Positions 4,788 through 37,151 of a stretch of 39,699 nt of DNA are shown here, piece by piece. The notes below the pieces were generated by a model that was not told the DNA's origin, did no database searches, and saw nothing but the letters and a program-made list of their open reading frames with translations. Position 1 is the stretch's first letter; the number at the start of each line of letters is the position of its first letter. The stretch comes from Polaromonas sp. (GTDB lineage: Bacteria > Pseudomonadota > Gammaproteobacteria > Burkholderiales > Burkholderiaceae_C). Location: positions 1 to 39,699 of the forward strand of contig JAKFXR010000115.1 in the NCBI GenBank assembly GCA_021731285.1. Reading direction: 5' to 3'. The position numbers and the translations under genes were made by a program.

Positions 4788-4811
4788 GTCGTCTCCTTGA
4801 CGTCAATCGCC

Positions 4812-7981: not shown

Positions 7982-7987
7982 GATGCC

Positions 7988-14668: not shown

Positions 14669-14712
14669 CGGCCGCTGGCCGCGCCGATCAACCGGTTGCT
14701 GCATTGCAGCAT

Positions 14713-20807: not shown

Positions 20808-21787
20808 AAGCCATTTTTTCCGGTTCACTCGCGCGCTGTCTGCCCGCCATCGCGTTGCTGCTCGCCATACCTGCCTCGGCTGCAGATCCTTACCCCAATA
20901 AAGTGATCCGCATGGTCGTGCCTTATTCAGCGGGCGGTACGGGCGACAACATTGGGCGGTTGGTTGGCAACAAGCTCGCCGAGTTTCTGGGGCAGCCCAT
21001 CGTTATTGACAACAAGCCGGGCGCAGGTGGAAATATTGGAGCGGAGGCGACGGTGCGTTCGGCAGCCGATGGCTACACCATCGTCATGGCGTCCACCAGC
21101 CTGGCAAGCAACCCCAGCCTGCAAAAAAAGATGAGCTTTGATCCGTTGAAGGATCTTGTTTCGATCAGCCAGTGCTGCGGTGTTCCCATGATTGTTGTGG
21201 TGCACCCCTCGTTGCCGATTCGCTCCATCTCCGAGTTGATTGTCTACGCCAAAGCCAATCCGGGTCAGTTGAATTTTTCGTCATCGGGCATTGGAACTTC
21301 CAGTCACCTGGCTGGCGAATTGTTCAAGGTGTCGGCTGGCGTGGATATGACGCATGTGCCCTACAAAGCCGATTCGCAGGCGCTGCCTGACCTGCTGGCC
21401 GGAAACATCAATGTGATGTTCATGTTCCAGACCTCAGCACTGCCGCAAATCCGCTCGGGCAAGCTGCGTGCCATTGCAGTCAGTACTGCGCAACGCTCGC
21501 CGCTCATGCCCGGTCTGCCAACCATTGCTGAAGCGGGTGTACCCGGTTACGACTTCAACGGATGGTTTGGCCTGTTTGCACCGGCAGGTACGCCAAAACC
21601 AGTGATTGATACCCTCGCGGCAGCCACTATGCGTGCCGTGCGCTCGCCTGATTTGAAGGCCAAGCTGCTTGAGCAGGGTTTCGTGCCGGTAGGTGACTCG
21701 CCAGCGGAGTTCACGCGCTTCTTCAGTGCCGAAGTTGGCAAGTGGGCGCGCGTGGCACGTGAAGGCCGGCTCCCGCAAATCGACTGA
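20804..21787 (+). CDS. Bug-family (TctC-like) periplasmic substrate-binding protein, orphan
   Basis: This 327-residue exported protein has a signal peptide ending PASAADPYP. The mature start PNKVIRMVVPYSAGGTGDNI is the family hallmark, followed by NKPGAGGNIGAEATVRSAAD and the late VPGYDFNGWFGLFAPAGTP. Bug/TctC proteins bind carboxylates for tripartite tricarboxylate transporters. No TctA or TctB gene is in the window, so it must use a partner encoded elsewhere or act as a sensor. It overlaps the ligase stop by 4 nt. Its base composition is markedly less GC-rich than the preceding genes. The ligand may be the (di)carboxylate substrate. Confidence 0.88.
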   Translation: MKAIFSGSLARCLPAIALLLAIPASAADPYPNKVIRMVVPYSAGGTGDNIGRLVGNKLAEFLGQPIVIDNKPGAGGNIGAEATVRSAADGYTIVMASTSLASNPSLQKKMSFDPLKDLVSISQCCGVPMIVVVHPSLPIRSISELIVYAKANPGQLNFSSSGIGTSSHLAGELFKVSAGVDMTHVPYKADSQALPDLLAGNINVMFMFQTSALPQIRSGKLRAIAVSTAQRSPLMPGLPTIAEAGVPGYDFNGWFGLFAPAGTPKPVIDTLAAATMRAVRSPDLKAKLLEQGFVPVGDSPAEFTRFFSAEVGKWARVAREGRLPQID

Positions 21788-23291: not shown

Positions 23292-23882
23292 ATGACACCC
23301 AGACGCATCATCGTCGCGATCACTGGTGCCAGCGGCGTAGTCTATGGCGTGCGCCTGCTCGAAGCCCTGCGCAAAATGGAGCACTGCGAGTCGCACCTCA
23401 TCTTGTCAGCCGCTGGAGGGCTGACGGCTATGCAGGAACTCGACATGTCGCGTAGTGACATCGAGCAACTGGCGCATGTCACGCACAACGTGCGCGACAT
23501 CGGCGCTTCGGTGGCCAGCGGCTCTTTTAAGACGCACGGCATGGTAGTGGCGCCTTGCTCCATGAAGACACTGGCCAGCATTGCCCTTGGCCTGTCCGAC
23601 AACCTGGTGAGCCGTGCCGCTGATGTAGTGCTCAAGGAACGCCGACGCCTTGTGCTGATGACGCGGGAGACACCACTCAATCTGGCGCATTTGCGCAACA
23701 TGGTCGCCGTGACCGAAATGGGTGGCTTGATCTGCCCACCAGTACCGGCTTTCTACACGCGGCCAGCCACACTCGATGACATCGTTAACCACAGCGTGGC
23801 GCGCGTGCTCGACCTGTTCGCTCTGGATCACGCTGTGCCACTGCAACGCTGGCAGGGCCTGAACGCCCAGGCCAGCGAATGA
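23292..23882 (+). CDS. ubiX: UbiX-family flavin prenyltransferase
   Basis: This 196-residue protein makes prenylated FMN from FMN and dimethylallyl phosphate, the cofactor of the UbiD enzyme encoded 10 nt upstream. Family motifs are all present: ITGASGVVYG near the N-terminus, SFKTHGMVVAPCSMKTLASI, LMTRETPLNLAHLRNM and PPVPAFYTRPATLDD. I place the start at 23292, just after the UbiD stop, giving the normal family length; a longer in-frame reading would run into UbiD. It corresponds in position and type to hmfG. A dedicated copy on the ICE makes decarboxylase activation independent of the host's own UbiX. Confidence 0.93.
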   Translation: MTPRRIIVAITGASGVVYGVRLLEALRKMEHCESHLILSAAGGLTAMQELDMSRSDIEQLAHVTHNVRDIGASVASGSFKTHGMVVAPCSMKTLASIALGLSDNLVSRAADVVLKERRRLVLMTRETPLNLAHLRNMVAVTEMGGLICPPVPAFYTRPATLDDIVNHSVARVLDLFALDHAVPLQRWQGLNAQASE

Positions 23883-23917: not shown

Positions 23918-25144
23918 ATGAAGAAACCCTCATTCCAACGTATCGCAGGCGTCGCACTCGCTGCGCTGGGCGTGGCGCTCATGGCCACGCCGGCCAGCGC
24001 CAAAATTGGCTCATGCAGCGACCCGATCGTGTTCGGTACCACGCTGTCCGAGACGGGACCGTTTTCCACGCTGGCGGGCCGCTGGCGAAAGATGACCGAG
24101 GTGTTCGCCGAGGAGGTCAACAAGACCGGCGGCGTCATGGTCAAGAGCTGCGGCAAGAAGCTGCCGCTCAAGTTCGTCATCTACGACGACCAGAGCGTGC
24201 CGGCCACCGCGGTCGCGTTGTACGAGAAGATGGCGACGGTCGACAACGTCGACTTCTTCGTCGGCCCCGACTGGTCGTCGCTCGGTGGTCCGGTGCCGCC
24301 GGTGGCGGACAAGCACAAGATCCCGATGGTGATGGCCAACGTGGCCACGCCGTCCGTCTACGACCGCGGACTGAAGTACATTTGGGGCACACCGTTCCCG
24401 GTGGTGCCGCGCTGGTCGGAACGCTACTTCGACATGATCACCAAGGTCAGCCCGAAGCCGCAATCGATCTACTTCGTCACCCACGACAACCCGGTGATGA
24501 AGGGCATCACCGCCACCTGGAGCAAGAAGGCGGAGGCTCAGGGCCTGAAGGTGCTGGGCAACGAGACCTTCTCGCCCGAACTGAAAGACTTCACCGCGCT
24601 GATCGCCAAGGTGCGCGCCGCCAAGGCCGACATCGTCTACATCAGCTCCTTCGACAACGCCTCGGTGCCGCTGGTGCAGCAGATGCGCCAGTTGAAAGTG
24701 CGGGCGATGGACGTGCACCACACGATGCTGACCGGCTCGCTGGCGCGCCAGGTGGGCGCCGACATCGAAGGCATGACCGGCGAACTGAGCTGGTACCCCG
24801 GCATCAAGGGCGCCTACAGCGACCTAGTCGAAACCGTGATGAAACGTTCGGACGTGACGATGTTCGACTACATCTGGACCCTCGGCCGGCTGACCTCGTA
24901 CCTGACGATGATCCAGGGCATCGAGAAGGCCGGCGTGGTCGACCGCGAGAAGGTCAAGGAGGCGCTGTTCAAGGCCACGGTCAAGTCGCCCGCCGGCGAC
25001 GTGAGCTTCGACGAGCGTGGCTTCGCCGACACCGGCGCCTTCACGGTGCAGATGCAAAACGGCAAGGTCGCCGTGGTGTGGCCGCCCGAGGTCGCGACCG
25101 GCAAGCTGATGTGGCCGTCGCCGACCTGGCAGCAGCCGCAGTGA
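23918..25144 (+). CDS. ABC transporter substrate-binding protein (LivK type), system 1
   Basis: This 408-residue periplasmic type I binding protein belongs to the branched-chain-amino-acid/amide family. The start at 23918 is preferred over an in-frame ATG 39 nt earlier, because AAGGAGAC ends about 5 nt before it and MKKPSFQR opens a standard signal peptide ending TPASA. The mature part shows IVFGTTLSETGPFSTLAGRW, FFVGPDWSSLGGPVPPVADK and VYISSFDNASVPLVQQM. Such proteins also bind aromatic and heterocyclic acids, and the operon context suggests the pathway substrate. This gene opens a very GC-rich transporter block unlike the UbiD genes before it. Confidence 0.88.
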   Translation: MKKPSFQRIAGVALAALGVALMATPASAKIGSCSDPIVFGTTLSETGPFSTLAGRWRKMTEVFAEEVNKTGGVMVKSCGKKLPLKFVIYDDQSVPATAVALYEKMATVDNVDFFVGPDWSSLGGPVPPVADKHKIPMVMANVATPSVYDRGLKYIWGTPFPVVPRWSERYFDMITKVSPKPQSIYFVTHDNPVMKGITATWSKKAEAQGLKVLGNETFSPELKDFTALIAKVRAAKADIVYISSFDNASVPLVQQMRQLKVRAMDVHHTMLTGSLARQVGADIEGMTGELSWYPGIKGAYSDLVETVMKRSDVTMFDYIWTLGRLTSYLTMIQGIEKAGVVDREKVKEALFKATVKSPAGDVSFDERGFADTGAFTVQMQNGKVAVVWPPEVATGKLMWPSPTWQQPQ

Positions 25145-25151
25145 GGCAGTC

Positions 25152-26024
25152 ATGAGTTTTGACATCCTGCTCCAGGTGCTCATCGGCGGCGTGCTGCTCG
25201 GGGGTCTGTACGCGCTGGTTGCTTTCGGGCTGTCGCTCATCTACGGCGTGGTGCGCATCCTCAACTTCGCCCACGGCACGCTGCTCGCGGTCAGCGGCGT
25301 GCTGGCCAGCCTGGCGTTCAGCGCCTGGGGCATGCACCCGCTCGTGATCGCCGCGCTGCTGGCGCCGCTGATGTTCGCCTGCGCCTACGGCTACTACCTC
25401 TTGCTGCTGCGGCCACTCGCCAAGCGCAGCCACTTCGAGAGCACGGTCGGAACGGTGCTGGTGACGGTCGGCACCTTGATGATGCTGAGCGACATCACCG
25501 CCAAAGCCGCCGGTGCGACACAGCGCAACATCCCGCTGCGCCTGCCGGCAATCGAGTTCGGCGAGATCGTGATCTCGACCACGCAGCTGCTGATCCTGGC
25601 GGGCATCGTGCTGCTGACGGTGGTGATGCACCTGCTACTCAAGCGCACCTGGTTCGGCCGCGCGGTCCGCGCGGTGACGCAGGACGCCACCGGCGCCCAG
25701 ATCTGCGGCGTGCAGAGCACCGGCATCAAGGCGCTGACCTTCGCGTTCGGCTCGGCCACGGTGGCGATCGCCGCGGTGCTCTACGTGCTGTCGTTCCCCG
25801 TCGACCCGTACATGGGTTTCGGCCTCACGGTGAAGGCCTTCACGATCATTGTCGTCGGCGGCATCGGCAACCTGCCGGGCGCCTTGCTCGCGGGTGTGTT
25901 TCTCGGTGTGGCCGAGGGCCTGACAGGGCTGTACTGGAAGCCCGAATGGGCGCCGGCGCTCAGCGTCGTCGCGATGCTGGTGATTCTTGTGGCCTTTCCG
26001 AAGCGTGTGGGAGCAAGAGCATGA
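25152..26024 (+). CDS. livH: ABC transporter permease (LivH type), system 1
   Basis: This 290-residue inner-membrane permease has about eight hydrophobic segments and the LivH signature near its start (LYALVAFGLSLIYGVVRILN, then FAHG). The late EAA-like region reads ICGVQSTGIKALTFAFG, followed by KAFTIIVVGGIGNLPGALL, characteristic of the family. It starts 7 nt after the binding-protein gene behind a GAGG, and its stop overlaps the fused permease-ATPase gene by 4 nt. The symbol is a family label; leucine is not the expected cargo. Confidence 0.9.
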   Translation: MSFDILLQVLIGGVLLGGLYALVAFGLSLIYGVVRILNFAHGTLLAVSGVLASLAFSAWGMHPLVIAALLAPLMFACAYGYYLLLLRPLAKRSHFESTVGTVLVTVGTLMMLSDITAKAAGATQRNIPLRLPAIEFGEIVISTTQLLILAGIVLLTVVMHLLLKRTWFGRAVRAVTQDATGAQICGVQSTGIKALTFAFGSATVAIAAVLYVLSFPVDPYMGFGLTVKAFTIIVVGGIGNLPGALLAGVFLGVAEGLTGLYWKPEWAPALSVVAMLVILVAFPKRVGARA

Positions 26025-27868
26025 GCGCCGCGAACGAATACACGGTCCCCGCCCCCACCGTGCAGCGGACGGGGAGGGGGGGCAAGGCAACAGGCTGGCT
26101 GCTTGGCGCTGCGGCGATAGTCGCGCTCGCGGCGATGCCCTTCGTTGGCAACGCCTACCTGACGACCTTCGTCTTCACCATGCTGATCGCCTACATCCTG
26201 GCCCAGAGCTGGGACTGGGTGGCCGGCGAGATGGGCTATGTGAACCTGGGCCACTACTGCTTCTACGGCATCGGTGCCTACGGCTTTGCCATTGCTCTGA
26301 CCGGCCAATGGCCGTTCGCAGTGGCGCTGGTTTTCGCGGTGCTCGTCACCGGTCTGGTCGCGCTGTTCCTGTCGGTACCGCTGTTCAGGCTGCACGGCGA
26401 CTACTTCGCGTTCGGCACTCTCGCCCTGCTGCCGCTGATGGAGGTGCTGGCCTACAACCTGACGTCGATCACCAAGGGCGGCGATGGCATCGTGCTGCCG
26501 GTGGCGCAGGTGCTGCAGCCGGCCTACCTGCTCGCGCTGACGGCTTGTGTGGTCACCTTCCTCGTCACGCTGGGCATCAACCGGGTGCGCTTCGGTTACG
26601 CGCTGAAGAGCATCCGCAACGACGAGCAGGTGGCCGAGACGGTGGGTGTGCGCATCGCACCGGTCAAACGCAACGTGCTCGTGCTGAGTGCGGTGTTCGG
26701 TGCACTTGCCGGTGCCCTGCAGGCCTGGCAGATGAGCTACATCGACCCCGCCACCGTGTTCGGTCTCAACGTCGCGCTGGTGCCGGTGGCGATGGTGCTG
26801 TTCGCCGGGTCGGGCCTGCGCTGGGGGCCGCTGGCCGGCGTGGTGGTGCTCGCCAGCATGCAGCAATGGCTGCTCGTCAGCGTGCAGGGCTACCAGGCCG
26901 CGCTGTATGGCCTGGCCATTCTGCTGATAGGCCGCTTCATGCCCGGCGGTTTTCTACGGGCGAAGTGGGTGCGCTGGGTGCCGCTCTTGTCCTCACTGGC
27001 CCGTGAGCACCACGAATACAACGGCGAGTCGGCACGTCTCACACGCCGCAATGACGATCTGCCGCTGCCCAGGCTGCCGGTCGACCGTCACAAGCCCTTG
27101 ATCGAGTTGCAGGGCGTGCGCATGCAGTTCGGCGGCAACGTCGCGGTCAACGACATCAGCCTGAAGATCATGCAGGGTGAGATCATCGGCCTCGTCGGTC
27201 CCAACGGCTCGGGAAAGACGACGCTCTTCAATTGCATCTCGCGTGTTTACACGCCCACCTCGGGCCGCGTGATGTTCGCCGGACAGGACCTGGGCCATCT
27301 CGGCCGCGACCAGATCGCCCGGCTCGGCGTCGGCCGAACCTACCAGATCCCGCGCCCGTTCGGCGACCTGACAGTGCAGGAGAACATCGCGATCCCGCTG
27401 ATGTTCGGCGACGATCCGCTGTCGCCGCGCGACGCGCTGCGCGAGGCGCGCGCCTTCGTCGACTACGCCGAGTTGTCGCCGCGCCTGCTAGCCCGTGCCG
27501 ATGCCCTGTCGATGCAGGAGAAGAAGGCGCTCGAGTTCTCCCGCGCGCTGGCCTGCAAACCGCGCCTGCTGCTGGTCGACGAGGTGGCCTCCGGGCTCAC
27601 GCCGGCCGAGGTGAAGCGCTTCGTCGAGCACATCCGCCATGTGCGCGACCGCTACGGCATCACGGTGATCTGGGTCGAGCACATCTTCTCGGCGCTGGAA
27701 CAGGTGGTCGACCGCGTCATCGTACTCGAACAGGGCTCGCTGATCGCCGACGGCAAGCTGGCCGACGTCGTCAAGGACGAACGTGTGCTGCGTACCTACC
27801 TCGGAACGGCCGCCGCCGCGCACGCGCCGCAGCCGGCGCTCGGCAAGCTCGCTTCGGGAGACGCATGA
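26021..27868 (+). CDS. Fused ABC transporter permease-ATPase (LivM-LivG), system 1
   Basis: This 615-residue protein joins two subunits that are usually separate. Residues ~25-325 are a LivM-type permease (AQSWDWVAGEMGYVNLGHYC, FGYALKSIRNDEQVAETVGV). A charged linker at ~326-358 leads to a LivG-type ATPase: Walker A GPNGSGKT at 393-400, Walker B LLLVDE at ~516-521, and the H-loop His554 (WVEHI). The signature segment is LSMQEKKALEFSRAL instead of LSGGQ-like, which is a loose match but common in LivG variants. The start overlaps livH by 4 nt, and a longer in-frame reading lies inside livH. There is no stop or frameshift across the junction, so the fusion looks real. Confidence 0.9.
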   Translation: MSAANEYTVPAPTVQRTGRGGKATGWLLGAAAIVALAAMPFVGNAYLTTFVFTMLIAYILAQSWDWVAGEMGYVNLGHYCFYGIGAYGFAIALTGQWPFAVALVFAVLVTGLVALFLSVPLFRLHGDYFAFGTLALLPLMEVLAYNLTSITKGGDGIVLPVAQVLQPAYLLALTACVVTFLVTLGINRVRFGYALKSIRNDEQVAETVGVRIAPVKRNVLVLSAVFGALAGALQAWQMSYIDPATVFGLNVALVPVAMVLFAGSGLRWGPLAGVVVLASMQQWLLVSVQGYQAALYGLAILLIGRFMPGGFLRAKWVRWVPLLSSLAREHHEYNGESARLTRRNDDLPLPRLPVDRHKPLIELQGVRMQFGGNVAVNDISLKIMQGEIIGLVGPNGSGKTTLFNCISRVYTPTSGRVMFAGQDLGHLGRDQIARLGVGRTYQIPRPFGDLTVQENIAIPLMFGDDPLSPRDALREARAFVDYAELSPRLLARADALSMQEKKALEFSRALACKPRLLLVDEVASGLTPAEVKRFVEHIRHVRDRYGITVIWVEHIFSALEQVVDRVIVLEQGSLIADGKLADVVKDERVLRTYLGTAAAAHAPQPALGKLASGDA

Positions 27869-28575
27869 TGCTGAACATCACCAACCTCCAGGTCGACCAC
27901 GGCAAGCTGCGCGCGCTGTGGGACTTCTCGCTACGTGTGGCGCCGGGCGAACGGGTGGGGCTGCTCGGCGCCAACGGGGCCGGCAAGTCGACCGCGATGG
28001 GCGCGATCGTCGGCCTGTACCCAAGTGCGGCCGGCAGCATCGAATACGACGGCAAGCCACTCACCCGTTCCAGCACCGCGCAGACGGTGGCCGGCGGCAT
28101 CGCGCTGGTGCCGGAGGGCCGGCGCCTGTTCGCCGGCATGAGCGTGCTGGAGAACCTGCTCATGGGTGCCTTCGCTGCAAAGACGCGCAAGGACATCGAG
28201 GGCCCGCTCGACACCGTGATGGCGCTGTTTCCCATCCTCAAGCAGAAGGCGAAGCAGAACGCCGGCGAGCTGAGCGGCGGGCAGCAACAGATGGTGGCGA
28301 TCGGCCGCGCGCTGACATCGAGCCCGAAGCTGCTGCTGCTCGACGAGCCGTTCATCGGCGTCGCGCCGAAGCTGGTAGACGAGATCCTGGACGCGTTGCG
28401 GCTGATCGCCAGCGGCGGCGTGACGATGGTTCTGGTCGAGCAAAACACCCACCGCGCGCTCGACTTCGTCGAACGCGCCTACGTCCTCGAGAACGGCCGA
28501 ACCGTACTCGAAGGCAACCGCGACGCGCTGCTGAATGATCCCTCGTTCGCGGCCAAGTTTCTAGGCCTTGAATGA
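27865..28575 (+). CDS. livF: ABC transporter ATP-binding protein (LivF type), system 1
   Basis: This 236-residue nucleotide-binding subunit pairs with the LivG half of the fused protein. The Walker A is GANGAGKS at 35-42, the Q-loop region reads GIALVPEGRRLFAGMSVLEN, the signature is ELSGGQQQMVAIGRAL, the Walker B is LLLLDEPFIGVAP, and the switch reads VLVEQNTHRAL. These are textbook LivF features. The start is one of two adjacent ATGs overlapping the previous stop by 1-4 nt. It is the last gene of the very GC-rich transporter block. Confidence 0.93.
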   Translation: MMLNITNLQVDHGKLRALWDFSLRVAPGERVGLLGANGAGKSTAMGAIVGLYPSAAGSIEYDGKPLTRSSTAQTVAGGIALVPEGRRLFAGMSVLENLLMGAFAAKTRKDIEGPLDTVMALFPILKQKAKQNAGELSGGQQQMVAIGRALTSSPKLLLLDEPFIGVAPKLVDEILDALRLIASGGVTMVLVEQNTHRALDFVERAYVLENGRTVLEGNRDALLNDPSFAAKFLGLE

Positions 28576-28595: not shown

Positions 28596-29378
28596 ATGAA
28601 CCGCAAGCAAGAAATCTTTGCCCGCTCGAACGCCTTTCGCGAGGAGTATCGGGCGTCTACCCCCGGCTGGTACCGCGGCGAGGTGCATCTCGCATTCACG
28701 CTGCTCTTCACCGGCGGTGTGATCTGGTATTGCATCTCGAAAATCGGGGGCGCAAGCTGGATGGAGTGGACCTACGTCGTGGCGCCGATGTTCCTCTTCG
28801 GCAATTGGGCCGAATGGGCCGGGCACCGCTACCTGCTGCATAGCCCCAAGAGCTTGCTGAAGCCGGCCTACAAGCGGCATGTGGGCACTCATCACCAGTT
28901 CTTTTCGGACCAGACCCTGGACTACCATGGCCAGCGCGATTGGCGTGCCCTGCTGTTCCCGCCGTTTGCGCCGGTTTTGTTTGTGCTGGCTGCACTGCCG
29001 CCAGCGCTGCTGCTGGGCCTGCTGTGGACGGCCAATGCCGGCTATATCGCCATGCTGACCATGGCCGCGTACTTTCTGATGTACGAGGGCCTGCATACGC
29101 TGTCGCACCTTGAGCACCCGCTGCTGGACCGCCTGCCGCTGATCAATACCGTGCGCCGCATGCATGTGCTGCATCACAACCCCGACTTCATGCATACGCG
29201 CAACTTCAACCTGACCTTCCCGATTTGCGACGCCCTGTTTGGCACCAGTGACCTCAACAAGGGAGTCATTGGAACGCTGTTCAACGGCATGTCCAACGAA
29301 GCGCGCAAGCCCGAAGACCAGGCGAAGCTTGCAAAACAGCGGGTGGACAGGGCCATTGGCACTGACGCTACCGTTTGA
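28596..29378 (+). CDS. Membrane di-iron hydroxylase, sterol desaturase/fatty acid hydroxylase superfamily
   Basis: This 260-residue membrane protein carries the histidine clusters that bind two irons in this superfamily: H77-x4-H82 (HRYLLH), H95-x3-H99-H100 (HVGTHH), H167-x3-H171-x2-H174 and H190-x2-H193-H194 (HVLHH), plus His200 before a final FNLTFPICDALFGT motif. Hydrophobic spans lie at ~31-50 and ~122-165. AAGGAGACT precedes the ATG. The superfamily uses O2 to hydroxylate unactivated C-H bonds. Followed by a dehydrogenase and an aldehyde dehydrogenase, it may oxidise a methyl or alkyl side group of the substrate. The substrate is unknown, and lipid modification is the alternative. Confidence 0.82.
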   Translation: MNRKQEIFARSNAFREEYRASTPGWYRGEVHLAFTLLFTGGVIWYCISKIGGASWMEWTYVVAPMFLFGNWAEWAGHRYLLHSPKSLLKPAYKRHVGTHHQFFSDQTLDYHGQRDWRALLFPPFAPVLFVLAALPPALLLGLLWTANAGYIAMLTMAAYFLMYEGLHTLSHLEHPLLDRLPLINTVRRMHVLHHNPDFMHTRNFNLTFPICDALFGTSDLNKGVIGTLFNGMSNEARKPEDQAKLAKQRVDRAIGTDATV

Positions 29379-29394
29379 ACCCCAAGGAGAAACT

Positions 29395-30162
29395 ATGTCA
29401 GACAAAGGAAGGCTGCAAGGCCGTGTTGCCATCATCACCGGCGCCGCGCAGGGCATCGGCGCCGAGTACGCGCGCGCACTGGCGCTGGAAGGTGCGGCGG
29501 TGGTGCTGGCCGACGTGGTGGATGCATCGGCCGTAGCGGACGCGATCAAGCAGGGTGGAGGGAGGGCTCTCGCGCTAAAAGTGGATGTGACGTCCCCGGA
29601 GTCCACGCAGAGGATGGCGCAGGCAGCGGTAGAGGCCTTTGGCCACATCGACGTGCTGGTCAACAACGCCGGCTTGTTCGCCAATCTCGCGCTCAAGCCG
29701 TTCGAGCAGATTGACAGCGCGGAATGGGACCGTGTGATGGCGGTCAACGTCCGGGGGGTATTTGAATGCAGCAAGGCCGTGGTGCCAGAGATGCGCCGTC
29801 GTCAATATGGCAAGATCATCAACATTGCCTCAGGCACCGTGTTCAAGGGCTCGCCGATGATGCTGCACTATGTCAGCTCCAAAGGCGCGGTGGTGGCGCT
29901 GAGCCGTGCATTGGCGCGTGAACTCGGCGACGCCGGGATTCGCGTCAACACCTTGGCGCCGGGTCTCACGGCCAGCGACAACGTCCTGAGCAATCCGGCC
30001 TGGCAGGGGGCAATTTCTGCCAACAACATTGCCAGCCGCGCCATCAAGCGCGAGGCCACACCGGCCGACATGAGCGGCACCCTGATTTACCTTTGCTCGC
30101 CCGAGAGCGACTTTGTCACCGGCCAGGTCATCGTCATTGACGGTGGCTCGGTCATGCACTGA
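29395..30162 (+). CDS. Short-chain dehydrogenase/reductase
   Basis: This 255-residue classical SDR has the cofactor motif TGAAQGIG at 15-22, Asp40 at the end of the second strand (suggesting NAD rather than NADP), NNAG at 90-93, and the catalytic residues Ser146, Tyr159 and Lys163 (YVSSK). The start at 29395 follows AAGGAGAA by a few nt; an upstream in-frame extension would run back into the hydroxylase gene. Sandwiched between the hydroxylase and an aldehyde dehydrogenase, it most simply oxidises an alcohol to an aldehyde. A 3-hydroxyacyl-CoA-type role is possible but fits the neighbours less well. Confidence 0.88.
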   Translation: MSDKGRLQGRVAIITGAAQGIGAEYARALALEGAAVVLADVVDASAVADAIKQGGGRALALKVDVTSPESTQRMAQAAVEAFGHIDVLVNNAGLFANLALKPFEQIDSAEWDRVMAVNVRGVFECSKAVVPEMRRRQYGKIINIASGTVFKGSPMMLHYVSSKGAVVALSRALARELGDAGIRVNTLAPGLTASDNVLSNPAWQGAISANNIASRAIKREATPADMSGTLIYLCSPESDFVTGQVIVIDGGSVMH

Positions 30163-30172
30163 GGAAACCTCC

Positions 30173-31627
30173 ATGAGTTCACTTCAGGCCAGAAATCTAG
30201 TCAACGGCGAGTGGCAGGGCGCTCTCTCCGGTCGCAGCGGTGTCTCCATCAATCCCGCCACTGCCGAGGTCATTGGCAGCTTTGCCGACAGTGCGGCCGA
30301 AGATGGCCAGGCCGCCATCAGCGCGGCGCGGCGCGCTTTCGACCGGCCCGACTGGGCGCAGAATCCGCGGCTGCGCCAGATGGTAATGCTGCGCTGGGCC
30401 GACCGGCTGGAGCAGCGCAGCGATGAACTTGCGAGACTGCTGACGCGCGAGAACGGCAAGGTGCTCGCACAGTCGCGCGGCGAGATCGCCGGCGCCGTTT
30501 CGGAAATCCGTTATTACGCGGGCCTGGCGCGTTTCATCCCGGGCCATGTGTTCGAGGTTGAAGCCGGTGTATTTTCTACGCTTCTCAAGGAGCCCGCTGG
30601 TGTTGTCGGGCTGATCATTCCCTGGAATGCACCGGTGGTGCTTCTGATCCGCGCACTCACACCGGCACTGGCCGCTGGTTGCACCGCGGTCATCAAGCCG
30701 GCACCACAGACCTCGCTGATCACCGCCGCGGTGATTGAAGAGCTGCATGCAGTCAGCGGCCTTCCAGCGGGGGTCGTGAATTTGGTGTCGGAGCGCGGCC
30801 ACGCGGTGGCGCAGGTGCTGGTGACTTCGAGTGAAGTCGACGTGATCAGCTTCACCGGCTCCAACGTGACTGGCCAGCGCATCATGGCCGATGCCGCGCC
30901 AACGATGAAGAAGCTGTCGCTCGAACTGGGCGGCAAGTCAGCCTGCCTGGTATTCGAAGACACCGACGTGGCAAAGGTTGCGCCACAACTCGCGGCCGCC
31001 GCCACCATCATTTCAGGGCAGCAGTGCACTGCTGCCCGGCGCGTGCTGGTGCATGAATCACGCTATGAGGAGATGAGGGCAGCGCTGAAGGCTGCGCTGG
31101 CGGCCATGGTGGTCGCGCCGGGCGACAGCCCAGGTTCGCAGATCGGCCCGCTGATCGACGCGCCTTCCTTGCAGCGCGTGGGTCGTCGCATCGACGAGGC
31201 GATGAGCCTGGCCGATGAAGTGGTGCTCAAGGGTGGCTTGGCAAGCAGTGCCGGAGCGAATGGCTTTTTCATGTCGCCCACCCTGATCGCCCACCGTGAC
31301 ACCAGCGCCTTCTTTGTACAGGAAGAAATCTTCGGTCCACTGGTCATCCTTGAGCGTTTTGCCGACGAGCGCGAGGCGGTGACCCGCGCCAACCATTCCG
31401 ACTACGGACTCTCGGCCAGCGTATGGACGCATGACGGCAATCGCGCCATGCGTGTGGCGCGTGCACTGCGAAACGGCACGGTGTGGATTAACGACCACAA
31501 CAAACTGTTTGCCGAGGCTGAAACCGGCGGTTACCGAAAGAGCGGCCTGGGCCGTTTGCACGGTTACGACGCACTGATTGACTTCATGGAGATCAAGCAC
31601 ATCTACCAAAACGCCGGCGTGGTCTAA
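30173..31627 (+). CDS. Aldehyde dehydrogenase
   Basis: This 484-residue NAD(P)-dependent aldehyde dehydrogenase keeps all key residues: Asn152 (PWNAP), Lys175 (IKPAPQT), Glu251 (LELGGKSA) and the nucleophile Cys285 (GQQCTAARR). The late EEIFGPLV motif is also present. The length is standard. The start at 30173 follows GAGGAAAC and lies 10 nt after the SDR stop; the earlier in-frame ATG is inside the SDR gene. In this pathway it could oxidise furfural to 2-furoate or a 5-formylfuroate-type aldehyde to the dicarboxylate. Exact substrate specificity is not readable. Confidence 0.9.
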   Translation: MSSLQARNLVNGEWQGALSGRSGVSINPATAEVIGSFADSAAEDGQAAISAARRAFDRPDWAQNPRLRQMVMLRWADRLEQRSDELARLLTRENGKVLAQSRGEIAGAVSEIRYYAGLARFIPGHVFEVEAGVFSTLLKEPAGVVGLIIPWNAPVVLLIRALTPALAAGCTAVIKPAPQTSLITAAVIEELHAVSGLPAGVVNLVSERGHAVAQVLVTSSEVDVISFTGSNVTGQRIMADAAPTMKKLSLELGGKSACLVFEDTDVAKVAPQLAAAATIISGQQCTAARRVLVHESRYEEMRAALKAALAAMVVAPGDSPGSQIGPLIDAPSLQRVGRRIDEAMSLADEVVLKGGLASSAGANGFFMSPTLIAHRDTSAFFVQEEIFGPLVILERFADEREAVTRANHSDYGLSASVWTHDGNRAMRVARALRNGTVWINDHNKLFAEAETGGYRKSGLGRLHGYDALIDFMEIKHIYQNAGVV

Positions 31628-31654: not shown

Positions 31655-32467
31655 ATGAAACTTAATGAATTAAATCATCCCGCAGCGACACTGCCTCCTG
31701 AGCTTGATGGCTTTTCAGTGCATATTGATGCCGAGCGCGAGCGCGCCGACATCGTGTTGTCGCGTCCGCCGTTCAACGTGATCAACATGGGCCAGCGGGA
31801 TCAGCTGCGCATTGTTTTCGAGGCGCTGGATGCCGATGAGCGGGTGCGCGTCATCGTGCTGCGCTCCGAAGGCGAGCATTTCTCGAGCGGGGGTGACATT
31901 CGCGGGTTCCTGGAAGCGTCGCCCGAGCATGTCTCCAAGCTCGCCTGGAACATTGCAGCGCCCGCCCGCTGCGGCAAGCCCGTGATCGCCGCCGCGCGGG
32001 GCTACTGCTTCGGCGTGGGTTTCGAGATTTCGCTGGCCTGCGATTTTCGTCTGGTGACGCCAACCACGCTTTACGCGCTGCCCGAACAGAAGCTGGGCCA
32101 AATCCCGGGTTCAGGCGGTTCGGCCCGGTTGCAGAAGATGGTGGGCATCACGCGAACCAAGGACATCGTGATGCGCTCGCGCCGCATTCCGGGCGTCCAG
32201 GCGGCGGACTGGGGCGTGGCGACCGAATGTGTACCCGACGCCGAACTGGAAACGGCCACCGATGCGCTGGTCAATGAACTGCGTTCGTTTTCGCCGCTGG
32301 CCCAGCGCACGGCCAAGAAGCTGCTCAACGACACCGAGGACTCGCCGCTGTCCATCGCCATCGAACTCGAAGGCCATTGTTACTCGCGCCTGCGCAGTTC
32401 GGAAGACTTCCGCGAGGGTGTCGAGGCTTTTCACGCCAAGCGCCGTCCGAATTTCACCGGCAAGTGA
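31655..32467 (+). CDS. hmfE: Enoyl-CoA hydratase/isomerase family protein (HmfE-like)
   Basis: This 270-residue crotonase-fold protein has the oxyanion-hole segment EGEHFSSGGDIRGF and both glutamates used by classical hydratases: Glu124 (GVGFEISLACD) and Glu144 (ALPEQKLGQIPG), with the usual 20-residue spacing. In the furoate pathway an enzyme of this family opens the lactone formed after C5 hydroxylation, giving 2-oxoglutaryl-CoA or 2-oxoglutarate, and it is the only CoA-thioester lyase or hydrolase candidate here. Unlike the usual cluster it is not next to hmfABCD but separated by about 11 kb. A more general hydratase role is possible. Confidence 0.65.
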   Translation: MKLNELNHPAATLPPELDGFSVHIDAERERADIVLSRPPFNVINMGQRDQLRIVFEALDADERVRVIVLRSEGEHFSSGGDIRGFLEASPEHVSKLAWNIAAPARCGKPVIAAARGYCFGVGFEISLACDFRLVTPTTLYALPEQKLGQIPGSGGSARLQKMVGITRTKDIVMRSRRIPGVQAADWGVATECVPDAELETATDALVNELRSFSPLAQRTAKKLLNDTEDSPLSIAIELEGHCYSRLRSSEDFREGVEAFHAKRRPNFTGK

Positions 32468-32515: not shown

Positions 32516-33685
32516 ATGAAAACTTATATTCGCACCATCCTCGCTGTCATGGGCGCAGCACCCTTGCTCGCCCTGGCCCAGACCGGCCCCATCAAGATCG
32601 GCGTGGTGACGCCGCTGTCAGGCACCTATGCGGGTATCGGCCAGCAGGTGAAATGGGGCCTGGATCTGGCGGCGGCGCAGATCAACGCCGCCGGCGGCGT
32701 GGCGGGGCGCAAGCTGGAACTGCTGTACGAGGACGAGGAAGCCAATCCGGCCGTCGCGACCCAGAAGGCCGAGAAGCTGTTCCAGGTCAACAAGGTCGAC
32801 TTCCTGACCGGGACAGTGAACTCCGGCTCGACGCTGGCCGTCGGCCAGGTCGCCGAGCGCAACGGCAAGCTGATGGCGACCACGGTGTCATTCTCTGACG
32901 CCATCACGGCCGACAAATGCTCGCCCAATGTGTTCCGCGTCAATGCGCGGGCCGGCATGCAGTCGGCCGCACTCGCCGAGTGGCTGTCCAGGGAAAAACC
33001 GCAAGCCAATGTGTTCTACCTCGGCCCCGACTACGAGATGGGCCGCAGCACCGTGGCGGCGTTCAAGTCGGCCGCCGAAGCCAAGGGGTCCAAGACCGTC
33101 GGCGAGGTTTATGCACCGCTGGACAACAAGGACTACTCGCCGTTTTTCGGCCAGGTGCGATCGGCCAAACCGGCGGTGATTTACACCTCGGTGGCCGGCA
33201 ACGACACGGTGCGTCTGTTCAACCAGATGGCCGAGTTCGGCCTGGGCCGCAACGTTCAGATTGTGGGAGCCTCGGGCACCGTGACTTCGCAAAACCTCGC
33301 TGCGATCGGCAAGGCGGCGGACGGGTTTGTCACCGGCGTGGGTTATTCGCCCAACATCGAAGGTCCGGAGAACAAAAAGTTTGTCACCGACTTTGTGGCC
33401 GCGAACAAGACCCTCCCCGACCTGTATGGCGCGGACTCGTATGGCGTGCTGTTTTTCTACAAGGCAGCCGTCGAAAAAGCCAAGAGCACCGAAACGGACA
33501 AGGTCCGCGACGCCATGCGTGGCCTGCAGTGGAACACGCCACAGGGCGTGAAGACGCTGCGCGCGGGCGACCACCAGGCGATGCAGGACATGTATGCGGT
33601 GCGCGTCAAGGGCGGCGAATTCCAGATCGTCGGCAAGGTGACGGCGGCTCAGGCCATCGGTCCCGACACCTGCACGAAATTCTAA
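32516..33685 (+). CDS. ABC transporter substrate-binding protein (LivK type), system 2
   Basis: This 389-residue periplasmic binding protein follows GAAGGAGAC and has a signal peptide ending LLALAQT. The mature start IKIGVVTPLSGTYAGIGQQV is typical, followed by ELLYEDEEANPAVATQKAEK and FLTGTVNSGSTLAVGQVAE. It differs clearly from the binding protein of system 1 and lacks that protein's N-terminal Cys pair, so the two systems are not a recent duplication. It probably binds a related acid or an alternative pathway substrate. Confidence 0.9.
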   Translation: MKTYIRTILAVMGAAPLLALAQTGPIKIGVVTPLSGTYAGIGQQVKWGLDLAAAQINAAGGVAGRKLELLYEDEEANPAVATQKAEKLFQVNKVDFLTGTVNSGSTLAVGQVAERNGKLMATTVSFSDAITADKCSPNVFRVNARAGMQSAALAEWLSREKPQANVFYLGPDYEMGRSTVAAFKSAAEAKGSKTVGEVYAPLDNKDYSPFFGQVRSAKPAVIYTSVAGNDTVRLFNQMAEFGLGRNVQIVGASGTVTSQNLAAIGKAADGFVTGVGYSPNIEGPENKKFVTDFVAANKTLPDLYGADSYGVLFFYKAAVEKAKSTETDKVRDAMRGLQWNTPQGVKTLRAGDHQAMQDMYAVRVKGGEFQIVGKVTAAQAIGPDTCTKF

Positions 33686-33748
33686 AAACAGCAGACGCAG
33701 CGCACGCCCCGGGCCTGGCCCGGCACCGCTGCACTTCAGGAGACAGAC

Positions 33749-34642
33749 ATGGGTGAAATGCTGGAGTGGCTGCAGTTTGTGCTGGCGCCGCAGGTGATCA
33801 ACGGAGCGTCGATCGGTGTGGCCGTGGTGTTGATGGCTCTCGGCCTGACCATCATTTTCGGCCTGCTCGATGTCATCAACATGGCGCATGGCGAGTTCTA
33901 TGCCATTGGCGCCTACGCCGCGGTGGCGCTGCTGGGAGTGGGTCTGCCTTTCTGGTGGGCGCTGGGCCTGACGCCGCTGCTGATGGCAGTGGTGGGTTAT
34001 GCGACGGAACGCACGCTGATCCAGCGCGTGTTCCATTCAAAGGAGCGGCACACGCTGACGCTGCTGCTGACTTTTGGCTTGGCGATCATTCTGGAGGATG
34101 CGCTGAAGATCGTGTTCGGTGCCAACCCGTTGCGTCTGGAGCCACCGATTTCCGGAGCGAGCGAGGTCTTCGGCCTGTTCTTTCCGAACTACCGCCTGTT
34201 CGTGATGGCGCTGGGCAGCGTGGTGATTGCCGCGGTCTGGCTGGTGGTGTTTCGCACGCGTCTCGGTGCCTTGGTGCGGGCTGCTGCCTATGACCGCCAC
34301 ATGGCCGCGTCGCTGGGCGTGCCGGTGGCCGTGGTGTACGCAGGCACGTTTGCGTTTGGCGTGGCGCTGGCTGGCCTGGCCGGCGTGTTGCTGGCACCGA
34401 TCTATTCGGTGTTCCCGACCATGGGGCGCGACTTTGTGCTGATTGCTTTTTCCGTGGTGATCATCGGTGGCATGGGTTCGATCAAGGGCGCGGTCATCGC
34501 CGGTCTGGTGCTGACCCAGATCCAGTCGATTTCCAGTCTTTATATTTCCCCGGTGTGGAGCGACCCGTTGCTGTTCGCGCTCATGGTACTGGTGTTGATG
34601 TGGCGTCCGCAAGGGCTGTTCGGGAGGTTGGGCCATGCGTGA
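33749..34642 (+). CDS. livH: ABC transporter permease (LivH type), system 2
   Basis: This 297-residue polytopic permease carries the LivH motifs VVLMALGLTIIFGLLDVINM (then AHGEF), MAASLGVPVAVVYAGTFAFG and VVIIGGMGSIKGAVIAGL. CAGGAGACAG lies just before its ATG, and a 63-nt gap follows the binding-protein gene. Its stop overlaps the next permease gene by 8 nt. The sequence is distinct from livH of system 1. Confidence 0.92.
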   Translation: MGEMLEWLQFVLAPQVINGASIGVAVVLMALGLTIIFGLLDVINMAHGEFYAIGAYAAVALLGVGLPFWWALGLTPLLMAVVGYATERTLIQRVFHSKERHTLTLLLTFGLAIILEDALKIVFGANPLRLEPPISGASEVFGLFFPNYRLFVMALGSVVIAAVWLVVFRTRLGALVRAAAYDRHMAASLGVPVAVVYAGTFAFGVALAGLAGVLLAPIYSVFPTMGRDFVLIAFSVVIIGGMGSIKGAVIAGLVLTQIQSISSLYISPVWSDPLLFALMVLVLMWRPQGLFGRLGHA

Positions 34643-35666
34643 AATGACTGCTGATCCGGTGGTACTGTCCACCGCCGTGACTCCTCGCCTGCTGCGCCGC
34701 CCAACCCGTGCGCTGGCCTGGCTGTTCTTCGGCCTGGCACTGCTGTTTGCCGTGGTGGCCGGGATCAAAGGCGACGTGTTTTTCTTCCGGCTGGCCACCG
34801 AAGCCCTGATCTTTGGCGGACTGGCGCTGTCGGTCGATCTGCTGCTCGGCCGGACCGGTCTGCTGCCGCTGGGGCAGGCCCTGTTCTTCGGGTTTGGCGC
34901 CTATGTGTCGGCCCTGGTGCTCAAACAGGGCTTGCCTTCGTTCTGGCTGGCGATGGCGGTGGTGCTGGTGACGACCACGCTGGTCGGGTTGCTGGCCGGG
35001 GTGATTGCGATTCGTGCCAAGGGCGTTTACTTTGCGCTGATCAGCTTCGGGCTGGCCCAGGTGGTCTCCAAGGTGGTGTTCAACACGCGCGAGCTGGGTG
35101 CGTCGGACGGCATCATCGGTGTGCCGGTACCGCAGATTTCGTTCGGGCTGTTCAGTGTTGATGCGGCCAGCCCGGCGGGTTTCTTCTTGCTGGTGCTGGT
35201 ATTTATAGCCGTCCTGTACGGCCTGTTGGCCTACCTGATGGAAACACCCTTCGGGCACCAGCTGGCGGCGATCCGCACCAATGAACACCGTGTCCCGTTC
35301 TTGGGCGTCGACCCCTGGCGCTACAAGCTCGCGGCCTTTGTGCTGGCGGCCAATGTGGCGGGACTGTCGGGCGCTCTGTACCCGATGCTGCGCGGTTTTG
35401 TCTCGCCCGAGCTGATGTTCTTCCAAGTCTCCGGCAACGCCATTATCAACGTCATCGTGGGTGGCACCGGCACGTTGATCGGTGCGCTCTACGGTTCGGC
35501 GATCCTCACGGTGCTCAGGTCGGTCATCGGCACCTTCACGGCCCACCACCAGCTCGTGATCGGCGTGATCTTCATGATTTCGGTGATTTTCTTTCCGCGG
35601 GGGCTGATCGGTTATGTGCTTGAGGCGCTCGAGCGGCGCAATGCCAACAGGGAGAAATCGTCATGA
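34635..35666 (+). CDS. livM: ABC transporter permease (LivM type), system 2
   Basis: This 343-residue permease partners LivH of the same system. Motifs include LALSVDLLLGRTGLLPLGQA, GVYFALISFGLAQVVSKVVF and HQLAAIRTNEHRVPFLGVDP, the cytoplasmic loop typical of LivM. Here the permease is a stand-alone protein, in contrast to the LivM-LivG fusion of system 1. GGGAGG lies about 7 nt before the ATG at 34635; an ATG three codons later is an alternative. It overlaps livG by 4 nt. Confidence 0.92.
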   Translation: MREMTADPVVLSTAVTPRLLRRPTRALAWLFFGLALLFAVVAGIKGDVFFFRLATEALIFGGLALSVDLLLGRTGLLPLGQALFFGFGAYVSALVLKQGLPSFWLAMAVVLVTTTLVGLLAGVIAIRAKGVYFALISFGLAQVVSKVVFNTRELGASDGIIGVPVPQISFGLFSVDAASPAGFFLLVLVFIAVLYGLLAYLMETPFGHQLAAIRTNEHRVPFLGVDPWRYKLAAFVLAANVAGLSGALYPMLRGFVSPELMFFQVSGNAIINVIVGGTGTLIGALYGSAILTVLRSVIGTFTAHHQLVIGVIFMISVIFFPRGLIGYVLEALERRNANREKSS

Positions 35667-36451
35667 GTGCAGTGCCTGTAGCCGTGGTCGCCGCCCCCCC
35701 GGACGCCATTCTCTCGGTGAACGACATTTCGGTACGCTTTGGGTCACTGGTGGCCGTCAACGGCGTGAGCTTTGAGGCGCAGCGTGGGCAGATCACCTCG
35801 GTGATCGGGCCGAACGGCGCCGGCAAAAGCACCTTGTTCAACCTGATCAGCGGGGCGATCCGGCCGAGCGCTGGCCGCGTGATATTTGACGGGCAGGACC
35901 TGACCGGTTCTGCCCCCAACCACATGCTGGCTGCCGGTCTGGCGCGCTCGTTCCAGATCACCAACCTGTTCTTCGAACTGTCGGTGCGCGAGAACCTGCG
36001 CCTGGCGGCGCAATTCCTTGAACAGGGCCGTGGCCTGCTGCGGCCCGTCGGTTCCAGCCAGTTGGCGCTGCAGCGGGTCGACGAGCTGGTAGAGCGTTTT
36101 CGGCTGGAACGCAAGCTCGATGAGTTGGCAGGTTTTCTGTCGCACGGGGAACAGCGCCGGCTTGAAATTGCCGTGGCCCTTGCCGCCCGTCCGCGCGTGC
36201 TCCTGCTGGACGAACCCACCCAGGGCATGAGTCATGCCGATACGCAGGAAACAGGGGCCATGATCCGCAGCCTGGCCGGCGAGTCCCTGAGCATTCTGCT
36301 GGTCGAGCACGATGTCGATCTGGTAATGAGTCTGTCGGACCATGTTGTGGTGATGCATCAGGGCGGCAAGCTGGCCGAAGGCACGCCGCAGCTGGTGCGC
36401 AGCAATCCGGCTGTGCAATCGGCTTACTTTGGAGATGCTACCCATGCTTGA
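35663..36451 (+). CDS. livG: ABC transporter ATP-binding protein (LivG type), system 2
   Basis: This 262-residue nucleotide-binding subunit has the Walker A GPNGAGKS at 49-56, the signature FLSHGEQRRLEIAVAL, the Walker B VLLLDEPTQGMSH and the switch LLVEHDVDLVMSL. A hydrophobic Ala/Val-rich N-terminal extension of about 15 residues precedes the domain. It overlaps livM by 4 nt and livF by 8 nt, indicating coupled synthesis of the two ATPases. Confidence 0.93.
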   Translation: MSAVPVAVVAAPPDAILSVNDISVRFGSLVAVNGVSFEAQRGQITSVIGPNGAGKSTLFNLISGAIRPSAGRVIFDGQDLTGSAPNHMLAAGLARSFQITNLFFELSVRENLRLAAQFLEQGRGLLRPVGSSQLALQRVDELVERFRLERKLDELAGFLSHGEQRRLEIAVALAARPRVLLLDEPTQGMSHADTQETGAMIRSLAGESLSILLVEHDVDLVMSLSDHVVVMHQGGKLAEGTPQLVRSNPAVQSAYFGDATHA

Positions 36452-37151
36452 GCTGACAAATGTTCATACCCACTACGGCCTGAGTCATGTGCTGCAGGGC
36501 GTGTCGATCCGCGTGTGCGCCGGCGAGGTGGTCGGTCTGTTTGGCCGCAACGGCGTCGGCAAGACCACCGTGATGAAGACGATCGCCGGATGGCTCACGC
36601 CATCGGAGGGACGCGTTGCTTTCGACGGCCAGGAGATTGGCGGCGTGGCCTCGGACGTGATTTGCCGCCGCGGCATTGGTTTTGTGCCTGAGGACCGGCG
36701 CATCTTTCCCGGTCTCACGGTGGAAGAAAACCTGGTGCTGGGTTTCATGCAATGCCCAGGCCGCTCGGGCGCCGAATCGAAACGCCAGCTCGATGAAATT
36801 TACCAGCGTTTCCCGCGATTGGGTGAACGCCGCCTGCAAATGGGAACGACCCTGTCGGGCGGGGAGCAGCAAATGCTGGCCATGGCACGCGTCCTGGTGG
36901 GCAAGCCCAGGTTGCTGCTGATCGACGAACCCACCGAAGGGCTGGCGCCCAGGATTGTGGACGAGATCTTCCACATCATGGAGGGTTTGCGCCGCGAAGG
37001 CATCCCCATCGTGCTGGTGGAGCAAAACGTGCGCCGCGCCATCGACCTGTCGACGCGCTTTTACGCGCTGGAACGCGGTCAGATTTTGCTCGAAGGCGAT
37101 GCGTCCAATCCCGCACACCGCCAGGCGCTATTTGACCGCATCGCGGTTTGA
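36444..37151 (+). CDS. livF: ABC transporter ATP-binding protein (LivF type), system 2
   Basis: This 235-residue ATPase has the Walker A GRNGVGKT at 34-41, the signature TLSGGEQQMLAMARVL, the Walker B LLLIDEPTEGLAP and the switch VLVEQNVRRAIDL. I take the ATG at 36444 as start: GGAG lies 9 nt upstream and MLELTNVHTHYG is the normal LivF opening. A TTG and an ATG slightly upstream in frame are less likely. It is the last gene of the catabolic train and converges on the relaxase gene. Confidence 0.92.
   Translation: MLELTNVHTHYGLSHVLQGVSIRVCAGEVVGLFGRNGVGKTTVMKTIAGWLTPSEGRVAFDGQEIGGVASDVICRRGIGFVPEDRRIFPGLTVEENLVLGFMQCPGRSGAESKRQLDEIYQRFPRLGERRLQMGTTLSGGEQQMLAMARVLVGKPRLLLIDEPTEGLAPRIVDEIFHIMEGLRREGIPIVLVEQNVRRAIDLSTRFYALERGQILLEGDASNPAHRQALFDRIAV

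Follow-up and report, generated by a model that had tools for sequence, protein, structure and literature searches.

What is a gene for a membrane protein of the sterol-desaturase/fatty-acid-hydroxylase type (hereafter, FAH) doing inside a bacterial furan degradation cluster? The question is raised by contig JAKFXR010000115.1 of a Polaromonas sp. (GCA_021731285.1), analyzed here over its 39,699 nucleotides (hereafter, the window), in which FAH is followed directly by genes for a short-chain dehydrogenase/reductase (SDR) and an aldehyde dehydrogenase (ALDH). We consider it probable that the window holds an apparently mobile furan cluster of the hmf/psf type, in which FAH would hydroxylate the methyl group of 5-methyl-2-furoate to 5-hydroxymethyl-2-furoate (HMFCA), or that of 5-methylfurfural to 5-hydroxymethylfurfural (HMF). 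FAH is best read as a single-gene, optional widening of the substrate range of the HMF pathway.

In the proposed route, FAH, a predicted membrane di-iron monooxygenase, would hydroxylate the ring methyl of the 5-methylfuran to give HMFCA or HMF. The PsfG-type SDR would then oxidize HMFCA to 5-formyl-2-furoate (FFCA), the PsfA-type ALDH would convert FFCA to 2,5-furandicarboxylate (FDCA), HmfF with HmfG would decarboxylate FDCA to 2-furoate, and HmfD, HmfABC and HmfE would take furoate to 2-oxoglutarate. We infer the hydroxylation by FAH, its substrate and its electron donor, and the PsfG, PsfA and HmfF steps, established by knock-out in Pseudomonas umsongensis GO16, are carried over to the window by analogy.

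A furan-dicarboxylate pathway in the window

The three consecutive genes of the original prediction (hydroxylase, SDR, ALDH) were all found, together with the UbiD/UbiX pair that it had placed in the same operon. They belong to one collinear run on the + strand (14836–37151) with the order HmfA-B-C-D, TctC, HmfF, HmfG, ATP-binding cassette (ABC) system 1, FAH, SDR, ALDH, HmfE and ABC system 2 (Table 1). The gaps are 20 bp between the ABC ATPase and FAH, 16 bp between FAH and SDR, 10 bp between SDR and ALDH, and 27 bp between ALDH and the enoyl-CoA hydratase gene, and the UbiX gene begins 10 bp 3' of the UbiD gene.

Among solved structures, the window UbiD best matched 6h6v/6h6x (E = 1e-128; runner-up, 3e-62), which we take to be the HmfF of Pelotomaculum. 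Two presumably functionally important residues of 6h6v, H296 and R304, are kept in the window protein as H305 and R313. The HmfF-type decarboxylase and UbiX partner that the hmf/psf pathway requires are present in the window, the furoate branch (hmfABC, hmfD and hmfE) is complete at the level of families, and relatives carry the same set. With hmfABCD, hmfF, hmfG and hmfE all matched, the earlier identification of the cluster as a furan-dicarboxylate/furoate (hmf) pathway was borne out. The pathway also requires oxidation of HMFCA, either by PsfG plus PsfA or by HmfH, and by family and gene order the window provides PsfG and PsfA types. A Paraburkholderia HmfH-type protein of the glucose-methanol-choline (GMC) oxidoreductase family found no match in the whole window at E 0.001, in agreement with the predicted absence of this GMC oxidase. 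HmfH is probably missing because PsfG and PsfA perform the steps from HMFCA through FFCA to FDCA.

The closest described system is that of GO16 (passages of PMC12064950). Its cluster, as listed in Table 2 of that study, comprises hmfABCDE, hmfI, hmfF, hmfT, psfG, psfA, psfB, psfC, hyd, psfD and araC, without hmfH. Deletion of psfG (SDR) abolishes growth on HMF and HMFCA, deletion of psfA (ALDH) abolishes growth on substrates up to FFCA, and deletion of hmfF abolishes growth on HMF and FDCA; the knock-outs assign PsfG and PsfA to the conversion of HMFCA via FFCA to FDCA (passages of PMC12064950). The window shares with GO16 the hmfABCDE, hmfF and UbiX genes, the PsfG SDR, the PsfA ALDH, an uptake gene, an AraC regulator and the lack of HmfH. 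It differs in its two ABC systems and TctC protein, and in FAH: no hydroxylase appears in the gene table of GO16, where the locus tags of psfG and psfA follow one another (07500 and 07505). At an FAH locus of P. baetica (L003), the gene types follow the order of GO16 Table 2 (hmfI outside the comparison), with FAH between the psfG and psfA types. In other loci, the PsfG-type gene is accompanied by HmfF, uptake genes and PsfA, matching the GO16 listing for psfG. By gene type and order, PsfG and PsfA are the best assignments for the SDR and ALDH of the window. The hmf clusters of Cupriavidus basilensis HMF14, as described in passages of PMC12064950, resemble the window in the furoate branch and the HmfF/HmfG decarboxylation but use the GMC oxidase HmfH, and those passages mention no hydroxylase.

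The trio had been predicted to form a new front end that turns a methyl group into a carboxyl group. For the SDR and ALDH this did not hold, as theirs are the known PsfG and PsfA steps of the GO16 knock-outs; the hydroxylase step remains new, with a substrate that we infer. Similarly, in the predicted route from methylfuroate, HMF or methylfurfural through the hydroxymethyl, formyl and dicarboxylate stages to 2-furoate, the later steps match PsfG, PsfA and HmfF, and the hydroxylase substrate is the conjectural part.

FAH in other genomes

A search of genome contigs for FAH returned 49 loci from Burkholderiales, Pseudomonas, Alcanivorax relatives and one Zoogloea metagenome-assembled genome (MAG). 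HmfA-D- or HmfF-type genes lay within the fetched stretch at 45 of these FAH-retrieved loci (the exceptions being L008, L024, L042 and L046), so the association of FAH with hmf genes is not due to chance. PsfG was present in 26 loci and HmfH in 21, never both, and 47/49 had one or the other (neither in L042 and L046). ALDH relatives at ≥50% identity were found in 27/49. The trio as a fixed unit was rejected, as FAH occurs with HmfH and without PsfG in those 21 loci, mostly of Burkholderiaceae.

The gene orders differ between lineages (plasmid gene products as annotated, gene names assigned by match). The ABC1-FAH-PsfG arrangement is that of the window; it recurs in L024 (ABC1-FAH-PsfG-PsfA), and the ATPase of ABC system 1 is directly upstream of FAH in 11/56 loci where FAH could be placed. 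Pseudomonas has HmfT-PsfG-FAH-PsfA or the same order with a tripartite ATP-independent periplasmic (TRAP) transporter (TRAP-PsfG-FAH-PsfA), and the Alcanivorax relatives have TRAP-PsfG-FAH. The 4.6-kb contig of L008, a MAG, holds only TRAP genes, PsfG, FAH and PsfA. Ramlibacter and Acidovorax (L016, L020 and L023) have FAH-TRAP-PsfG-PsfA, divergent from a gene that by eye is TetR-like, and Paraburkholderia, Burkholderia, Caballeronia, Variovorax and Massilia have HmfH-HmfT-FAH. The order is HmfF-HmfG-TctC (Bug)-HmfH-FAH on plasmid pENH92 of C. necator, with the hmfA operon apart, and HmfF-G-A-B-C-D-E-H-T-FAH on a B. aenigmatica plasmid, and HmfF-HmfG-FAH are consecutive in genome G1215, again with a separate hmfA operon. 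A plasmid of Dinoroseobacter shibae carries an alphaproteobacterial FAH, 50% identical, near UbiD, UbiX, SDR and TRAP genes. Across these several cluster architectures and different uptake systems, FAH groups with upper-pathway genes. In L042, FAH lies beside two fragments matching the LysR gene that is its usual neighbor.

HmfF was detected in 47 of the 48 checkable FAH genomes (28/28 by genome search, 14/15 genomes of further loci, and five with HmfF in the locus itself, namely L003, L007, L010, L013 and L028; the L032 genome is outside the count). We also sampled genomes by HmfA first, which was found in 11/399 genomes of the window's order, 52/299 of the family of G010 and 18/298 of the genus of G713; merging two duplicates with the same coordinates and excluding the window's own genome gave 78 HmfA-positive genomes. 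FAH, counted at ≥50% identity, was present in 31 (29/70 plus G292 and G136; G547 included), and a further 15/70 had matches at 35–41% only, which were not counted. HmfF was present in 48/78, comprising 31/31 genomes with FAH and 17/47 without; conversely, FAH occurred in 31/48 HmfF-positive genomes vs 0/30 HmfF-negative ones. In a class-wide sample of 369 genomes, one member of the FAH clade was found besides the window's genome (G1215), and one genome (G1175) had a 39% FAH relative and no HmfF at E 1e-100. The trio traveling independently of ubiD and furoate genes, which had been named as grounds for refutation, was looked for and not borne out. In the suggested survey of co-occurrence with ubiD, it was the hydroxylase that proved tied to HmfF; the trio is not a fixed unit, given the HmfH partner in 21/49 loci. 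FAH pseudogenes in several genomes were considered and rejected, because the internal stops reflected matches that overran the ends of shorter proteins (L039, L043, L049 and L026), and the stops within the FAH matches of G643 and G136 are likely of the same kind; a stop was also reported in the match of G615, which may be either kind.

To see what clusters look like without FAH, twelve regions were compared, comprising G1215 and eleven HmfF-positive, FAH-negative clusters. Four of the eleven keep the order of FAH-positive clusters with FAH alone gone: L067 and L069 have HmfF-HmfT-PsfG-PsfA-psfB with no FAH in the PsfG-PsfA gap, and in L070 and L075 HmfH-HmfT adjoins the LysR gene, FAH being gone from between. 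In the remaining seven, FAH is not the only difference, or the stretch ends before the FAH position. GO16 itself, whose listed genes do not include FAH, grows on HMF (passages of PMC12064950). Since four clusters lack only FAH and GO16 grows on HMF with no listed FAH, FAH is dispensable for HMF use and optional.

In a tree of 61 rows (near-copies L004 and L005 excluded; long-branch warnings on some rows, chiefly L059), one branch (support 97/94) separated the 53 rows of hmf-type FAH, Dinoroseobacter being basal among them, from eight relatives. Among relatives of 32–41% identity, those on plasmids of Methylobacterium, Halomonas, Cupriavidus and Hydrogenophaga (L053, L055, L058 and L060) lie near a DUF6166 gene and near ABC, TRAP or major facilitator superfamily uptake genes, with GntR in three and SDR plus alpha/beta hydrolase in two. 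They share with FAH the ten histidines described below and the nearby uptake genes, but differ in the lack of hmfA-/hmfF-type genes in the stretches covered, in the DUF6166 neighbor and in their separate side of the tree; possibly they are another catabolic hydroxylase group. On plasmid pRK1-1 of Cupriavidus basilensis (L059, 6989–8134), a 381-aa protein annotated as SRPBCC is 35% identical to FAH over most of the FAH length and may be a hydroxylase-SRPBCC fusion, and open frames of 384–410 aa surround the 35–41% FAH matches in Pseudomonas genomes.

The FAH protein and its likely substrate

FAH matched Pfam family PF04116 (FA_hydroxylase; 38.9 bits, cut-off 31) and no other family at E 0.001, nor did another appear at E 0.1; NCBIfam and PHROGs had no family for it, and its sequence found no solved structure at E 1. 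Ten histidines (H77, H82, H95, H99, H100, H167, H171, H190, H193 and H194) were invariant in 20/20 clade rows (the window protein plus 19 picked from the 49 loci at <96% mutual identity) and in 7/7 outgroup proteins at 32–41% identity. They form the clusters HX4H, HX3HH, HX3H and HX2HH, presumably the pattern of the fatty-acid-hydroxylase/sterol desaturase superfamily. XylM and AlkB are histidine-rich membrane di-iron enzymes that hydroxylate methyl groups of small molecules and belong to the FA_desaturase Pfam family (PF00487); FAH differs in having no match to that family at E 0.1, and 0/20 members matched it. An AlphaFold2 model of FAH aligned (VIA-align) with the yeast fatty acid 2-hydroxylase Scs7p (4zr0, 4zr1) over 205 residues with a Z of 10.0 and an rmsd of 3.9 (next unrelated row, Z 4.6), and Foldseek placed four Scs7p chains on top with probability 1.00. 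Scs7p has a similar ten-histidine pattern but is only 14% identical to FAH; we take it to act on sphingolipid acyl chains and to have a cytochrome b5 domain, which FAH does not have. Sequence and model together suggest that FAH is a superfamily member, somewhat distant from described families. Seven further residues (R27, E29, T35, T39, T168, P175 and D178) did not vary among 22 rows of hmf-type FAH (without Dinoroseobacter, which differs at R27, E29 and D178) and were found in at most one of the seven outgroup proteins; they are candidates for substrate specificity.

As FAH is dispensable for HMF, its product should enter the pathway at or above HMFCA. Because FAH is also tied to HmfF and not to the furoate branch, and lies beside HMFCA-oxidizing and uptake genes, we propose that the product is HMFCA or HMF, and therefore that the substrate of a methyl hydroxylase would be 5-methyl-2-furoate or 5-methylfurfural. 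Both compounds form from acid-heated 6-deoxy sugars (rhamnose and fucose) and are present in hydrolysates and roasted foods. 5-Methylfuran-2-carboxylic acid is regarded as one of the natural oxidation levels of the C6-furans, and its methyl ester is among bacterial volatiles (passages of PMC9966152).

The foremost alternative, an unlikely one in our view, is that FAH acts on 2-methylfuran, or on a different methylfuran with a single substituent, and yields furfuryl alcohol, which the SDR and ALDH would oxidize on to furoate, the UbiD pair being incidental. Chemistry and gene types are compatible with this, and PsfA and PsfG were originally linked to the oxidation of furfuryl alcohol and furfural in P. 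putida Fu1 (passages of PMC12064950). However, a furan that needs the furoate branch only would not need HmfF, so the tie to HmfF, with FAH in none of the 30 HmfF-negative genomes, favors a 5-methyl substrate; on pENH92 and in G1215, FAH is with HmfF/HmfG and the hmfA operon is apart.

Next, and also with little probability, FAH may cleave an ether side group (of a 5-alkoxymethylfurfural or -furoate, or a furfuryl ether dimer) by hydroxylation beside the oxygen, freeing HMFCA or HMF. The product would join the pathway at the same point, we take alkylglycerol monooxygenase to be in the same superfamily, and C6-furan ethers occur naturally (passages of PMC9966152), but no sign of alkyl by-product handling was seen in the clusters, and methyl oxidation is simpler. 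Lower again, we think it improbable that FAH acts on no furan and modifies membrane lipids (2-hydroxylation, or sterol or hopanoid oxidation) against toxic furan aldehydes, as its nearest solved fold, a fatty acid hydroxylase, and its automatic annotation (lipid biosynthetic process) might suggest. The HmfF-negative, HmfA-positive genomes are likely furfural or furoate degraders facing a similar aldehyde, yet have no FAH, whereas HmfF accompanies FAH nearly throughout; moreover, the window FAH sits among catabolic and uptake genes at spacings of 10–27 bp, and the 32–41% relatives are likewise near uptake genes. Very improbable is an aldehyde deformylase converting FFCA to 2-furoate and formate and bypassing PsfA and HmfF. 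Plant CER1-type proteins of the superfamily act on aldehydes, but such a bypass should tend to displace HmfF, which is present in all 31 sampled FAH genomes.

Several points weigh against a 5-methylfuran hydroxylase. The support assembled here consists of gene content, order, family, motif, modeled fold, clade and co-occurrence, and the correspondence of PsfG and PsfA to GO16 rests on family and gene order. The superfamily also includes desaturases, ether-cleaving monooxygenases and aldehyde decarbonylases, and the fold alone leaves the type of reaction unfixed. Family membership is itself marginal, as PF04116 was matched by 7/20 clade members only, at E 0.1, and the L016 protein, 79% identical to the window FAH, had no Pfam match at E 0.001. 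Confidence in the model is intermediate (mean predicted local distance difference test score 78), VIA-align cautions that Z below ~13, as here, may reflect an arrangement common in helical proteins, and the Foldseek E-value for the Scs7p match was 0.018 or weaker. No ferredoxin or reductase family was found among the genes of the run in family scans, except the 2Fe-2S subunit of the molybdenum enzyme. The association of FAH with HmfF has a Fisher p of 1e-9 (3e-9 without G010 and G713, the sample centers chosen for FAH), values that are overstated because the rows share descent and two of the three sample groups (family and genus) were selected for holding FAH. The L008 genome, the sole miss among the 48, had no detectable HmfF; in the Caballeronia loci L042 and L046, FAH lies away from hmf genes, with HmfF elsewhere in both genomes; and the FAH of G547 is in two overlapping pieces (C2:217412–218057), which looks like a frameshift, while HmfF is retained in that genome.

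The novelty of the 5-methylfuran reading lies in the FAH step only, that is, a known pathway plus an accessory step by an enzyme family that we do not know in that role. Among the titles and abstract starts listed by literature searches, none described a hydroxylase encoded in hmf clusters or the hydroxylation of 5-methylfuroate, and the hmf gene survey of Donoso et al. 2021, outside that scope, may mention the gene; the word "hydroxylase" is absent from the passages searched in PMC6678421, PMC13320085, PMC6952648 and PMC9966152. We see as evenly balanced the broader proposal that FAH founds an undescribed class of superfamily monooxygenases, with methyl hydroxylation of a small heteroaromatic acid (5-methyl-2-furoate) as the reaction, in the first genetically defined 5-methylfuran route, with the 32–41% relatives as a wider set of catabolic hydroxylases for other small substrates. 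If FAH acts as proposed, a one-gene module leading from methylfurans to HMFCA would broaden the bioconversion of biomass side streams, and FDCA, a plastic monomer, could be obtained from methylfurans in hmfF-deleted hosts, as done with HMF in GO16. Part of the sterol-desaturase superfamily, automatically labeled as lipid biosynthesis, would also shift to small-molecule catabolism.

Cluster layout and flanking genes

The window is contig C33 of a 4.0-Mb draft genome (87.56% complete). Purine-rich, Shine-Dalgarno-like tracts precede the starts of the genes of the FAH region. The SDR and ALDH starts are best placed as in Table 1, the starts in the list of open reading frames (ORFs), 29239 and 30113, being upstream in-frame TTGs. 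A regulator on the - strand at 13757–14704 was rejected, as the coding strand is + and the gene is that of the AraC-family protein.

Table 1 Features of the furan cluster in the window
Feature	Position	Strand	Basis or remark
AraC-family regulator heading the cluster	13784..14668	+	HTH_18, HTH_AraC, AraC_binding
HmfA-type molybdenum furoyl-CoA dehydrogenase large subunit	14836..17859	+	MoCoBD_1, MoCoBD_2, Ald_Xan_dh_C and COXG domains; family position
HmfB-type FAD subunit	17856..18701	+	FAD_binding_5, CO_deh_flav_C
HmfC-type 2Fe-2S subunit	18698..19246	+	Fer2_2, Fer2
HmfD-type acyl-CoA (furoyl-CoA) synthetase	19272..20807	+	AMP-binding
TctC (Bug) family substrate-binding protein	20804..21787	+	PF03401, E 4.7e-76
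HmfF-type UbiD decarboxylase (FDCA to 2-furoate)	21821..23281	+	Best solved match 6h6v/6h6x
HmfG/PsfC-type UbiX flavin prenyltransferase	23292..23882	+	UbiX NCBIfam models above cut-off; PF02441
ABC uptake system 1, branched-chain-amino-acid type (binding protein, permease, permease-ATPase fusion, ATPase)	23918..28575	+	Adjoins FAH on its upstream side
FAH, sterol-desaturase/fatty-acid-hydroxylase-type membrane protein, 260 aa	28596..29378	+	PF04116, ten histidines, Scs7p-like modeled fold
PsfG-type SDR, 255 aa	29395..30162	+	adh_short/adh_short_C2; proposed HMFCA to FFCA dehydrogenase
PsfA-type aldehyde dehydrogenase, 484 aa	30173..31627	+	Aldedh, E 1.6e-141; proposed FFCA to FDCA
HmfE-type enoyl-CoA hydratase/isomerase-family hydrolase	31655..32467	+	ECH_1; loci holding hmfA-D-type genes have 72–85% relatives
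ABC uptake system 2, branched-chain-amino-acid type, five genes	32516..37151	+	Family matches

Conjugation genes lie on both sides of the furan cluster, an arrangement like that of integrative conjugative elements or plasmids, and the cluster looks like mobile cargo. On one side are - strand trb genes and TraG (TrbI/G/F/L/E/B; 118–12171), and on the other is an RlxS-like relaxase (37529–39571, - strand; RlxS model at 679 bits, below the cut-off of 850, and DUF3363 above the Pfam cut-off). The set presumably resembles that of Tn4371-type elements. Between the trb genes and the regulator, the ORF at 12394–12813 had no family match in the Pfam and PHROG comparison, and its neighbor at 12998–13600 (- strand) matched a phage family of unknown function (PHROG 8571, E 1.9e-17). 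The HmfA-type subunit has a C-terminal CoxG (SRPBCC) domain (residues 849–986) fused to the molybdenum subunit.

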